NCBI GenBank assembly: GCA_019745975.1 | Contig: JAIESQ010000007.1 | Span: 1 to 64,000, forward strand | Length of the DNA: 64,000 nt | Source: Pirellulales bacterium | Lineage (GTDB): Bacteria > Planctomycetota > Planctomycetia > Pirellulales > JAEUIK01 | Direction of reading: 5' to 3' | Notes under the pieces: generated by a model | Seen by the model: the letters and a program-made list of their open reading frames with translations, nothing else | Told to the model about the DNA's origin: nothing | The model's database searches: none | Program-made: the position numbers and the translations under genes | Shown here: positions 7,763 through 45,065 of the stretch, piece by piece | Position numbering within the stretch: position 1 is the first letter of the stretch | Layout of the letters: each line of letters begins with the position of its first letter

Positions 7763-9238
7763 ATGGATCAGTCTCCCAATCCCTATCGAGCCCCCGACTC
7801 TCGCGGAGCGGTCGCGCTCGAAGCGCGGCGTCCGTCGCCGCAAGCCGTGTTGGTGCTGCTCATGGCGTTGGCCGCGTTGTGCCATTTCAATCGCGTGAGT
7901 ATCTCGGTGGCGGGAAGCGAGCGGTTGATGGGCGAGTTCGCGCTCAGCGCAGCGCAACTCGGCGCCGTCTATTCGTCCTACCTCGTGGTGTACACGCTGT
8001 TGATGATTCCCGGCGGCTGGCTGCTCGATCGCTTCGGGCCGACGCGAACACTCGGCGCGATGGTGGCGGGCTCGGTCGTGTTTGTCGCGGCCACGGCACT
8101 GGTCGGACTATCGGCGCTACCCGGCGGCGCGCTCGGTTCGCTGATCGTTGTACGCGGGGCGCTGGGAGCGGTGAGCGTACCGATGCACCCCGGCGCCGCG
8201 AACATGGTGGCCAACTGGTTCGGGCCGGCCCAGCGCGCCGCGGCCAATGGCTTCGTGACGGCGGCGGCCCTGGTGGGCATTGCCCTGACGTACCCGCTGT
8301 TTGGCATGTTGATCGACACGGTCGGCTGGCGTGCTGGAATGCTGATTTCGGCGGCGGTCACCGGCTTGGTGGCGGTCGCCGGGTTGGTCGTCGCGCGCGA
8401 TCGACCGGATTGCGAAGCACCAGCAAGCACTCTGGATAGCTCTCTAGGCAGTTTCAAAACCAGCACTGAACCGATGTCGGGTGCCACTGCTAGCTCGTCT
8501 AGCAGTGCCGTCTCGCACGCTGCACTGCTGGGCAAGCCAGCAGTGGCACCCACGCCAGGTTTTGAAACTGCTTTCAAAGACAAGGCCAGCACGCCACCGC
8601 TGGATCCGGCTGCGAGTGGGGCCGAGGTACCAACATCGCCGGCAACTGAACCGCAAGTTCTCAGCTTGATGTTGTTGACCGCCAGTTACGCCGCAGTCGG
8701 CTACTTTCAGTACCTGTTCTTCTACTGGAGCCAATACTACTTCGAACACGTGCTCGACCTCGACGCGCGGCGCGCGCGCTTCGGGGCGATGATCTTAAGC
8801 CTGGCCATGGCCGCCGGCATGTTGGCCGGAGGTTGGCTCGCCGCACGCTTGCAAGCGCGCTGGCATGTCTGGCGCGGTTTGAAAGTGGTGCCGATCATCG
8901 GCATGGCTGGCGGCGCTTTGGTGACGGTGGTCGGCGTGCTCGTCGATTGGCCAGCGGTCACCATCGCCAGCTTCGCACTGGCCATGGCCGCGGTCGGCAT
9001 GGCCGAAGGTCCGTTTTGGACCGCCGTGGTCGAAGTGGCCCCTCGCCGCCGCGGCACCGCCGCCGCGCTGTTCAACACCGGCGGCAACGTGGGTGGGCTA
9101 TTGGCGCCCTATGCCACGCCGGTAATCAGTGCCTGGCTCGGCTGGCAGTCGGGGATTGCCCTGGCCAGCGGCTTCTGCCTGATTGGCGCACTACTGTGGC
9201 TCTGGGTGCGTCCGGCCAATGGCACGCCGGGGACTTGA
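7763..9238 (+). CDS. MFS transporter with a palindromic repeat in its central loop
   Basis: About 491 residues with roughly 12 hydrophobic helices, typical of a major facilitator that moves a small solute across the inner membrane. The conserved loop-2 motif is visible as GWLLDRFGPTRT (about residues 85-96). The start is the ATG at 7763, giving the planctomycete-like opening MDQSPNPYRAP. Between helices 6 and 7 (about residues 228-271) the frame runs straight through a palindromic repeat copy, adding a Ser/Ala-rich stretch (SGATASSSSSAVS, LLGKPAVAPTPGFET). The central loop is cytoplasmic in this family, so the insert would not disturb the helices. Substrate unknown; the overall pattern resembles anion:cation symporter or sugar-phosphate relatives. 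Confidence 0.87.
   Translation: MDQSPNPYRAPDSRGAVALEARRPSPQAVLVLLMALAALCHFNRVSISVAGSERLMGEFALSAAQLGAVYSSYLVVYTLLMIPGGWLLDRFGPTRTLGAMVAGSVVFVAATALVGLSALPGGALGSLIVVRGALGAVSVPMHPGAANMVANWFGPAQRAAANGFVTAAALVGIALTYPLFGMLIDTVGWRAGMLISAAVTGLVAVAGLVVARDRPDCEAPASTLDSSLGSFKTSTEPMSGATASSSSSAVSHAALLGKPAVAPTPGFETAFKDKASTPPLDPAASGAEVPTSPATEPQVLSLMLLTASYAAVGYFQYLFFYWSQYYFEHVLDLDARRARFGAMILSLAMAAGMLAGGWLAARLQARWHVWRGLKVVPIIGMAGGALVTVVGVLVDWPAVTIASFALAMAAVGMAEGPFWTAVVEVAPRRRGTAAALFNTGGNVGGLLAPYATPVISAWLGWQSGIALASGFCLIGALLWLWVRPANGTPGT
8444..8575 (+). repeat. Palindromic repeat copy A (about 132 bp), inside the MFS gene
   Basis: The element has perfect 14-bp terminal inverted repeats: gcagtttcaaaacc at 8448-8461 and ggttttgaaactgc at 8558-8571. 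Inside is a 13-bp inverted repeat (gggtgccactgct / agcagtggcaccc) and two hairpins, one closing on ctcgt (cactgctag/ctagcagtg) and one on gcaag (cactgctgg/ccagcagtg). If the edges are extended by the weakly conserved outer bases seen in other copies, the length is 132 bp, exactly 44 codons. The host reading frame stays open. Boundaries are inferred from comparison of copies and may be off by a few bases. Confidence 0.9.
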
Positions 9239-9354
9239 GACACAAGGCTTGACGGTCGGCGTTTCGCGAAGCCACCTCGGCTTGGTGTCGGCTTGACCTG
9301 CGGGATAGAATCTCAGTGGAGTAACGGACCATGGCGCTTGAGAGGAGCACGGCG

Positions 9355-43945: not shown

Positions 43946-44072
43946 GAGCGCGACTCCGCGTCGCGACAGACGCTCACAAGCCCACTGCAGGGGACGACAT
44001 CGCACGGTCAATTCGCCGAGCGCTGCGTCCGCTGAGGTGGGTTTTTTTACGGCCTTGAGGCGAGAGGCACGC

Positions 44073-45065
44073 ATGCTGCGACATCGACTGCTATTCAGAA
44101 GCAGTTTCAAAACCTGGCTTGGGTGCCACTGCTGGCTTGCCCAGCAGTGCCGAGTTCGACACAGCACTGCTAGACGAGCTAGCAGTGGCACCAAACGTCG
44201 GTTCATCACCGGTTTTGAAATTGCTCCTAGTGTTCTCATCGTCGTGTCGATTCTCAATGCATCTGCCCACGCCGTCGACGCGCCGGTCACGAAATCGTTC
44301 GTCTACAAGGAGACGCCGCAGGCGGCACTCAAGCTGTTCGTGCACTATCCGCCCGGCTGGCAAGCGAGTGACTCGCGACCGGGGATCGTCTTCTTTTTTG
44401 GCGGCGGCTGGCAGCGCGGCAACGTCGAGCAGTTCGCGCGGCAGGCCGAGTACCTGGCGAGCCGGGGGATGATTGCCGCGCGGGCCGACTACCGCGTGAA
44501 GAGCCGGCACGACGTCTCGCCGCGCGATTGCGTGCTCGACGCCCGGGCGGCGCTGGCGTGGTTCCGCTCTCATGCGACGGAGCTGGGAGTCGATCCGGGG
44601 AAGATCGTCGCGTCGGGCGGATCGGCTGGCGGGCACTTGGCGGCCTGCACAGCGCTGGGCCCCAAGCTCGACGGCGAGCCGGACGCTGATCAGGCGGCGT
44701 ATCGCCCGAACGCATTGGTGCTGTTCAATCCCGCGCTGCGGTTCGATGGCGTGCCGCGTCTGATGGAGCGGATCGGTGGCGACGAAGGCGTGGGCAAGGC
44801 GATTTCGCCGACATTGAACTTGGATCGCACGAGCCCGCCGACGATGATCCTGTATGGCACCGCCGATCAGCTCTATGCGCAAGGGAAGGAATTCGCCGAG
44901 CGCGCCAAGCCGCTGGGCGTGCGGGTGGAAATGTTCACGGCCGACGATCAGCCGCACGGCTTCTTCAATCGGCCGCCGTGGACCGATCGCACCCTGTTGG
45001 CAGTTGATAAATTCCTGGCGTCGCTGGGCTATCTCGAAGGCGAGCCGACAATCGCCGAGCGATAG
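44073..45065 (+). CDS. Secreted esterase/lipase (BD-FAE-like), with a repeat before its signal peptide
   Basis: About 330 residues. The alpha/beta-hydrolase core has an oxyanion loop FFFGGGWQRG (usually HGGGW), the nucleophile elbow GGSAGGHLA and the catalytic His in DDQPHGFFN. Acetyl-xylan or feruloyl esterase activity is plausible. In the N-terminus (about residues 9-52) the reading frame runs through repeat copy D, so the hydrophobic signal core (APSVLIVVSILNASAHA) is pushed 45 residues inwards. Either the real start lies after the repeat at a non-standard codon, or the long n-region is tolerated, or export is lost. No good ATG/GTG lies in frame directly before the signal core; a GTG at 44244 would cut it. 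Confidence 0.8.
   Translation: MLRHRLLFRSSFKTWLGCHCWLAQQCRVRHSTARRASSGTKRRFITGFEIAPSVLIVVSILNASAHAVDAPVTKSFVYKETPQAALKLFVHYPPGWQASDSRPGIVFFFGGGWQRGNVEQFARQAEYLASRGMIAARADYRVKSRHDVSPRDCVLDARAALAWFRSHATELGVDPGKIVASGGSAGGHLAACTALGPKLDGEPDADQAAYRPNALVLFNPALRFDGVPRLMERIGGDEGVGKAISPTLNLDRTSPPTMILYGTADQLYAQGKEFAERAKPLGVRVEMFTADDQPHGFFNRPPWTDRTLLAVDKFLASLGYLEGEPTIAER
44097..44228 (-). repeat. Palindromic repeat copy D, at the start of the esterase gene
   Basis: Same orientation as copy C. Left terminal repeat gcagtttcaaaacc (44101), right ggttttgaaattgc (ending 44224), with outer bases agaa and tcct giving 132 bp. Inner hairpins are cactgctgg/ccagcagtg and cactgctag/ctagcagtg. Two frames on the plus strand and two on the minus strand are free of stops across it. 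Confidence 0.92.

Follow-up and report, generated by a model that had tools for sequence, protein, structure and literature searches.

A 132-bp palindromic repeat of a Pirellulales genome: a probable REPIN-like mobile element that can lie in frame within protein genes

In a stretch of 64,000 nucleotides from a Pirellulales bacterium (GenBank assembly GCA_019745975.1, contig JAIESQ010000007.1, positions 1 to 64,000; hereafter the window), a palindromic repeat of about 132 bp recurs within protein genes while leaving their reading frames open. What kind of element is it, and how do the genes that carry it stay open? The original prediction, made from the window alone, had proposed an independent planctomycete family of coding palindromic elements under selection to keep frames open. 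Our analysis points to a non-autonomous mobile element, which is probably a pair of repetitive extragenic palindromic (REP) hairpins resembling a REPIN (REP doublet forming hairpins), enclosed in terminal inverted repeats (TIRs), inserting at CT^AG and filtered by selection according to frame.

All four full copies and the one partial copy of the prediction were present at their places in the window, and their inverted repeats were recovered independently. Copy A (8444–8575, reverse strand, 132 bp) lies in frame, in codon phase 0 and in opposite orientation, within the open reading frame (ORF) of a major facilitator superfamily (MFS) transporter (7745–9238, forward strand; MFS_1, E = 1.3e-49), where it spans residues 234–277 and separates the two halves of the transporter. 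Copy C (30537–30668, forward strand, 132 bp) is in frame in codon phase 2 and occupies residues 380–423 of a membrane-protein-like ORF with no Pfam family (29398–31113, forward strand). Copy D (44097–44228, forward strand, 132 bp) is in frame with an alpha/beta hydrolase (44073–45065, forward strand; Abhydrolase_3/BD-FAE) and precedes its hydrophobic, signal-peptide-like stretch; it begins 24 nt 3' of the putative start ATG at 44073, and with the element left in, the gene caller begins at 44244, past the element. These three genic copies have the length foreseen for them. Copy B (10601–10733, reverse strand) measures 133 bp and is intergenic, directly 3' of an MsrB/MsrA fusion ORF that ends at 10599. 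Copies A and B are oriented opposite to C and D. The supposed half copy at 46693–46724 is indeed a repeat, but a solo REP hairpin (core 46697–46723, forward strand) lacking TIRs, near the start of ORF 46657–48390, whose called gene start is 46711. Chance repetition is ruled out, since the hairpin core is matched 9 times in the window, where 100 shuffles give an expectation of 0.00.

The consensus of 26 aligned copies runs from AGAAGCAGTTTCAAAACC through a spacer, hairpin 1 GGGTGCCACTGCTGGCTTGCCCAGCAGTGC, a variable 13-nt spacer, hairpin 2 GCACTGCTAGACGAGCTAGCAGTGGCACCC and a second outer spacer, 11 nt longer than the first, to GGTTTTGAAACTGCTTCT. The two hairpins are of opposite sense, head-to-head, and the 18-bp TIR AGAAGCAGTTTCAAAACC stands at both ends. 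The outer arms were recovered independently in copies A, C and D (14–18 bp, 89–100% identity), those of copy B going unreported by the tool; an inner inverted repeat of 29–37 bp (81–87%) was found in all four. Folded as single strands, the DNA of copy D (z = –6.6) and the RNA of copy C (z = –9.05) do far better than shuffles. Length is 132 bp in 73 of 100 copies from the source genome, and conservation ends at the outer AGAA/TTCT, save for CT before and AG after. The ends of the 132-bp copies are thus marked by a separate TIR outside the hairpins; the REP itself does not set them.

The source genome comprises 6.98 Mb in 204 contigs. The hairpin matched it 331 times at no more than one mismatch, compared to 0 in a reversed control, the terminal repeat 170 times compared to 1, and the left arm 104 times. 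An unselected sample of 1.245 Mb held 29 full copies, which scales to ~160 genome-wide; the 132-bp palindrome has come to occupy roughly a hundred sites or more in this genome. In 1.55 Mb of its sequence, 130 of 136 TIR matches stand beside a hairpin (hairpins with up to 5 substitutions being allowed). Most hairpins that lie outside full copies belong to the GCTTGTCC subtype and lack terminal repeats; a few are worn or half elements.

Across the order, the left arm was present in 4 of 396 genomes: the source genome, G024 (4 matches), G057 (3) and G031 (1, without a REP hairpin). G024 and G057 belong to another family than the source genome. Terminal repeats stand on both sides of two G024 copies (L263, L270) and one G057 copy (L269); the remaining pairs in these two genomes have one on one side or none. 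In G057 pairs (e.g. L401, L262, L269), both hairpins are altered together, mostly from CTGCTGG/CTGCTAG to CTGGTGG/CTGGTAG, as if tracking a change in the protein that recognises them. A planctomycete hairpin family and its in-frame insertion in protein genes had both been predicted, and on both counts the prediction held. The bare hairpin, which is widespread, matched at least 104 stretches, and among the 80 matches listed, 75 are planctomycete-named, 3 carry the name RI_301 and 2 that of Klebsiella pneumoniae. The last two (L070 and L125) are CAMBFS01 contigs from a metagenome bin, and their Klebsiella pneumoniae title is probably a mislabel.

The hairpins share a foot, GGGTGCC with single-base variants, in solo and paired copies and in those flanking genes for REP-associated tyrosine transposases (RAYTs). 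No GTAG or CGTC tag, by which REPs are recognised, was found at this foot; GTGG and GGTG variants figure in parts of the REP literature. Y1-transposase matches in the source genome number 15, of which 14 exceed the family cut-off, and inverted hairpin copies stand directly on either side of three RAYT-like genes (on C138, C80 and C29) that have HUH and Y motifs. A search with one of these genes gave matches in 47 of 146 genomes, the source genome included. Clear inverted REP pairs with a GTGCC-type foot, some with single-base variants, flank 13 of the 30 RAYT loci examined (one of them in the source genome), with stems that vary from genome to genome; no clear pair was seen at the other 17, a free inverted-repeat search having covered only 9 loci with a gene-motif match. 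Because inverted copies flank three RAYT genes here and orthologues elsewhere, we take the composite hairpins to be RAYT-associated REPs. The family is in that respect not the independent one that had been proposed. The absence of any transposase or RAYT from the window, also predicted, was borne out: contig C183, which holds the window, contains none of the genome's 15 Y1_Tnp and 2 DDE_3 matches. We regard a RAYT as the likeliest candidate mobiliser.

Two observations were made at RAYT loci in passing. Left of the C29 RAYT (L042), a half element with a terminal-repeat-like end and a RAYT-type GCTTGTCC hairpin adjoins the REPtron and may link the two repeat types. At L040 and L044 the RAYT frame is open through the flanking REP, reading GATAGLSSSA upstream of the likely start.

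The flanks of 68 copies were compared. The base on the left (–1) is T in 51 of 68, and of the two bases on the right the first (+1) is A in 47 and the second G in 49; CT stands on the left in 33, AG on the right in 37 and both in 19. TA was present on both sides in 26 copies and CG on the right in 10. CT^AG is thus the preferred target. A direct duplication of at least 4 bp just outside the 132-bp unit was found in 0 of 68 copies, one of 3 bp in 1 and one of 2 bp in 2; a 132-bp insertion at CT^AG without duplication and a 130-bp insertion with TA duplication yield the identical product. Passages of PMC8266576 report CT cleavage by TnpA-REP, with which the CT found at the element boundaries is in accord. 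Either-or targeting of CT on a single strand is not a simple account, since both sides fit in 19 of 68 copies.

Several observations weigh against the REP-based, RAYT-mobilised element that we favour. The TIRs are separate from the REPs and asymmetrically spaced from the hairpin cores (28 vs 39 nt), which a pure REP/RAYT model does not predict. The composite hairpins carry GCTTGCCC, slightly different from the GCTTGTCC of most RAYT-flanking REPs of this genome (one flank of the C29 RAYT carries GCTTGCCC), and G024 has composites yet no RAYT match in the 146-genome search. The target looks palindromic, unlike that of a simple single-strand RAYT insertion, and its symmetry suits a double-strand transposase no less than a RAYT; left CT and right AG co-occur about as often as independence predicts. 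Neither a transposition event nor a same-species empty allele was seen, the relatives searched being of other genera.

The best-surviving alternative takes the TIRs as the recognised ends of a miniature inverted-repeat transposable element (MITE) of an IS630/Tc1-like transposase, inserted at CTAG with duplication of TA, which has captured a REP pair. IS630-type elements duplicate TA, and the TA on both sides of 26 copies, the symmetric CTAG preference, the 18-bp TIR at both ends, the constant length and the asymmetric spacing would all suit such an origin. However, the source genome has two DDE_3 matches only, with no bracketing TIR pair at up to 5 mismatches; nearly all TIR matches accompany hairpins, and CG replaces AG on the right in 10 of 68 copies. 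No longer TIR-bounded element or insertion sequence with the same ends was found in the 1.55 Mb searched; DDE_3 was the sole transposase family searched for a partner, and the 204-contig assembly could hide one. We treat a MITE origin as possible but doubtful, and continue with the REP-based element.

How does the target bear on reading frames? A CTAG cut at mid-site within a coding frame can be met only in codon phase 0 or 2, because phase 1 would place TAG in frame. The consensus, 44 codons long, is stop-free in exactly these two phases, whichever its orientation, and is closed in the remaining one, so that an insertion would usually lengthen a protein rather than truncate it. In all 9 copies at stop codons (9/9), the element lies inside the stop codon and begins with a rebuilt stop. 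Among randomised elements that kept the pairing, 0.6% of ~40,000 trials equalled this phase pattern (p = 0.006). The fit between target and open frames is suggestive of adaptation but no proof, and it lends weak support to the idea of an element that has itself evolved towards open frames.

For position relative to genes, we classified 100 distinct copies of the source genome, after removal of 5 matches too near sequence ends and of flank duplicates. They are part of the family: the unselected sample supplied 29, and the other 71 were drawn from lists of best matches and of pattern matches, in which less diverged copies are favoured. Genes were called on element-removed sequence. Intergenic copies number 50. 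TAG stop codons hold another 9, 21 lie no more than 80 nt from a called start (a class that mixes genuine N-terminal inserts with wrong start calls), and 20 are deeper. With half of the classified copies between genes, the description of the repeat as living inside open reading frames was too strong. Of the 1266 CTAG sites in the sample, 35% fall between genes, 7% coincide with stops, 6% are close to starts and 52% lie deep. Deep copies are thus depleted (20 observed, about 52 predicted from CTAG sites) and near-start copies enriched; a position-weight target model in place of exact CTAG predicted even more deep insertions (73%). Counted against chance, as had been proposed, frame-breaking copies are rarer in genes, while deep copies are fewer, not more, than the target sites predict.

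The deep copies that remain are predominantly open. In-frame and stop-free copies make up 18 of 20, and 15 of these 18 use one and the same frame, which encodes a Ser/Ala-rich peptide like RSSFKTGDEPTSGATASSSSSAVSNLALLGKPAVAPKPGFETAS. The share expected for this main frame was ~11% from CTAG sites alone and 25% under an even split over the four open frames; among near-start copies it was used by 3 of 21 (p = 2e-5). With the near-start cut-off moved between 60 and 200 nt, the main frame still accounted for 13–15 of 15–21 open copies. Lengths that are multiples of three were found in 40 of 41 coding copies compared to 35 of 59 others (p = 4e-6). A subfamily with one additional base in its second hairpin has 2 of 20 copies in coding sequence, compared to 35 of 70 for the main type (p = 0.0015; 10 of the 100 copies fell in neither subfamily). 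Of its two coding copies, one is nonetheless 132 bp long, which compensates for the added base, and the other is frame-breaking. A further near-start copy (L298:2997-3137; 141 bp), in neither subfamily, is like the frame-shifting one, and an 8-bp tandem duplication restores a multiple of three and keeps it in frame. The selection shown here acts on which gene insertions survive.

An insertion neutral towards genes might give a similar picture, if the in-frame pattern were a by-product of the constant 132-bp length and the CTAG phase rules. The length is divisible by three, for which the prior chance is one third, and CTAG by itself bars one codon phase. Some of our results lean the same way: among intergenic 132-bp copies the main frame is open in 27 of 31, and a test for codon-level constraint after insertion gave a ratio of nonsynonymous to synonymous changes of 2.42 in deep main-frame copies and 3.4 in intergenic ones (p = 0.11, not significant). 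Taken alone, the unselected sample offers few deep copies (7, of which 6 are open, and 4 of these use the main frame), 2 of the 20 deep copies are frame-breaking, and the gene calls rest on a hexamer script of our own making, trained on 367 long ORFs. Neutrality nevertheless predicts far less than the main-frame share found in deep genic copies, and it leaves aside that near-start copies do not share this frame preference, that lengths other than multiples of three occur in 24 of 59 copies outside and 1 of 41 inside coding sequence, and that the frame-shifting subfamily is rare in genes. We consider it improbable. Of the selection that had been predicted, a strong bias against frame-breaking insertions in genes survives; codon-level constraint was not significant, and adaptation of the element itself is weakly supported.

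Orthologues without the insert were sought for several hosts, as the original prediction had suggested; most of those of PurQ, MnmE and two window proteins lack it, and the comparison brought no refutation. In PurQ the insert forms residues 196–239. PurQ matches were found in 53 of 57 genomes (the source genome included), and most others align in two pieces with a gap near 190–247; three genomes align straight through and a few match in part. At the site, 25 of 29 aligned PurQ orthologues have 0–7 residues and 4 have 15–25 unrelated residues, which marks it as a loop of variable length. In MnmE the insert (residues 290–333) lies just past the DTAG motif of the GTPase domain. Matches were found in 39 of 40 genomes, again including the source genome, and those of relatives mostly stop near 281–311 and restart near 330–358; two genomes align straight through, and three gave weak GTPase matches only. 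No second full-length PurQ or MnmE was present among the listed scored candidates of the source genome. All 8 orthologues of the copy-C host (8/8) lack the element, one having an unrelated longer stretch at the site, and a G004 orthologue of the copy-A transporter aligns over 30–240 and 306–491, with 51 nt between compared to 65 codons here. A single-sequence structure prediction of this transporter (mean predicted local distance difference test score 42.8) was not used. From the empty orthologues, together with the dispersed copies, we infer mobility.

Other hosts include HI0933-like oxidoreductase, pyrroloquinoline quinone (PQQ)-repeat, TolC-like, hydantoinase-like, O-antigen-ligase-like, ATP-grasp, subtilase and tetratricopeptide repeat (TPR) proteins. 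A large membrane-protein-like gene (G000 C193:54-6002; 5.7 kb without inserts) holds two in-frame copies in differing frames and orientations, and another such gene (G000 C196:24800-27208) holds a full copy and, farther on, a shorter remnant reading SALLDKPAVAPK. The insert is presumably translated into 44 residues, and the host proteins presumably remain functional. That mRNA processing or ribosome bypassing of the hairpin drops the 44 codons, leaving the protein unchanged, is very improbable, for all that the copy-C RNA hairpin is unusually stable and hosts include core enzymes with no second full-length copy listed, since such removal needs neither multiples of three nor one preferred peptide frame, yet both were found, and a translated insert would be easily tolerated in the variable PurQ loop.

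In the mechanism that we propose, the element, whose core is two RAYT-type REP hairpins set head-to-head within the TIR, would with each insertion add 132 bp at a CT^AG-like site. The third codon phase would be met at stop codons only, where T and the first AG of the element would rebuild TAG. Purifying selection would then clear most within-gene insertions, and the survivors would be those whose hydrophilic Ser/Ala/Pro-rich peptide falls where the protein tolerates it, for example in the variable loop of PurQ.

Known systems share parts of this design. Rickettsia palindromic elements (RPEs) and Wolbachia palindromic elements are described, in passages of PMC10969869 and PMC3767692, as dispersed repeats of ~100–150 bp that lie in frame in unrelated genes and encode a conserved peptide. 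The present element, likened to them by description, is likewise an in-frame palindrome of that size in many unrelated genes (18 of 20 deep copies open), and differs in phylum, in its RAYT-type REP core, its 18-bp TIRs and its CT^AG preference; by analogy, it appears to work like an RPE built from REPs. With REPINs and bacterial interspersed mosaic elements (BIMEs) it shares two inverted REP hairpins, a short spacer and a hairpin kind that also flanks RAYT genes, whereas the extra TIR, the GGGTGCC foot in place of GTAG and the location of 50 of 100 copies in or at coding sequence set it apart. Passages of PMC3733652 (2013) report intragenic REPs, with REP dimers inside coding genes of Opitutus terrae of the same superphylum, RAYTs flanked by REPs or TIRs, composites of REPs and other inverted repeats in Pseudomonas, and planctomycete REPs along with a plethora of tyrosine transposase genes in R. 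baltica; those passages contain no such planctomycete family, target rule or frame test. Enterobacterial RU repeat units (PMC2759123, from its abstract and outline) are of similar size (103–168 bp), MITE-like, furnished with ORFs and also found inside annotated genes; they have other hosts and, as far as the abstract and outline show, no REP/RAYT link. Our searches of the open-access literature found no TIR-closed family, CT^AG rule or frame statistics of this kind in print, and the 13-base hairpin pieces only in papers that are, by title, on unrelated subjects.

The element and its target rule together may even represent mobile DNA adapted to genes, with phases 0 and 2 open, TAG rebuilt, a length divisible by three, four open combinations of phase and orientation, and a frame that yields a benign linker; we put this forward tentatively, as a reading with less than an even claim. 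If it is true, the element can keep supplying standard 44-residue linkers to proteins, and its sister subfamily, with one extra base, is largely excluded from genes. Coding palindromes are best known from Rickettsia and Wolbachia, and here they appear, with statistics, in a 7-Mb planctomycete genome. One genome offers natural controls, in its frame-keeping and frame-shifting subfamilies and in its intergenic and genic copies, and, with both PurQ and MnmE among the hosts, the question of whether core enzymes bear a translated mobile linker becomes open to direct test. The RAYT-linked hairpins connect coding palindromes with a known transposase family.

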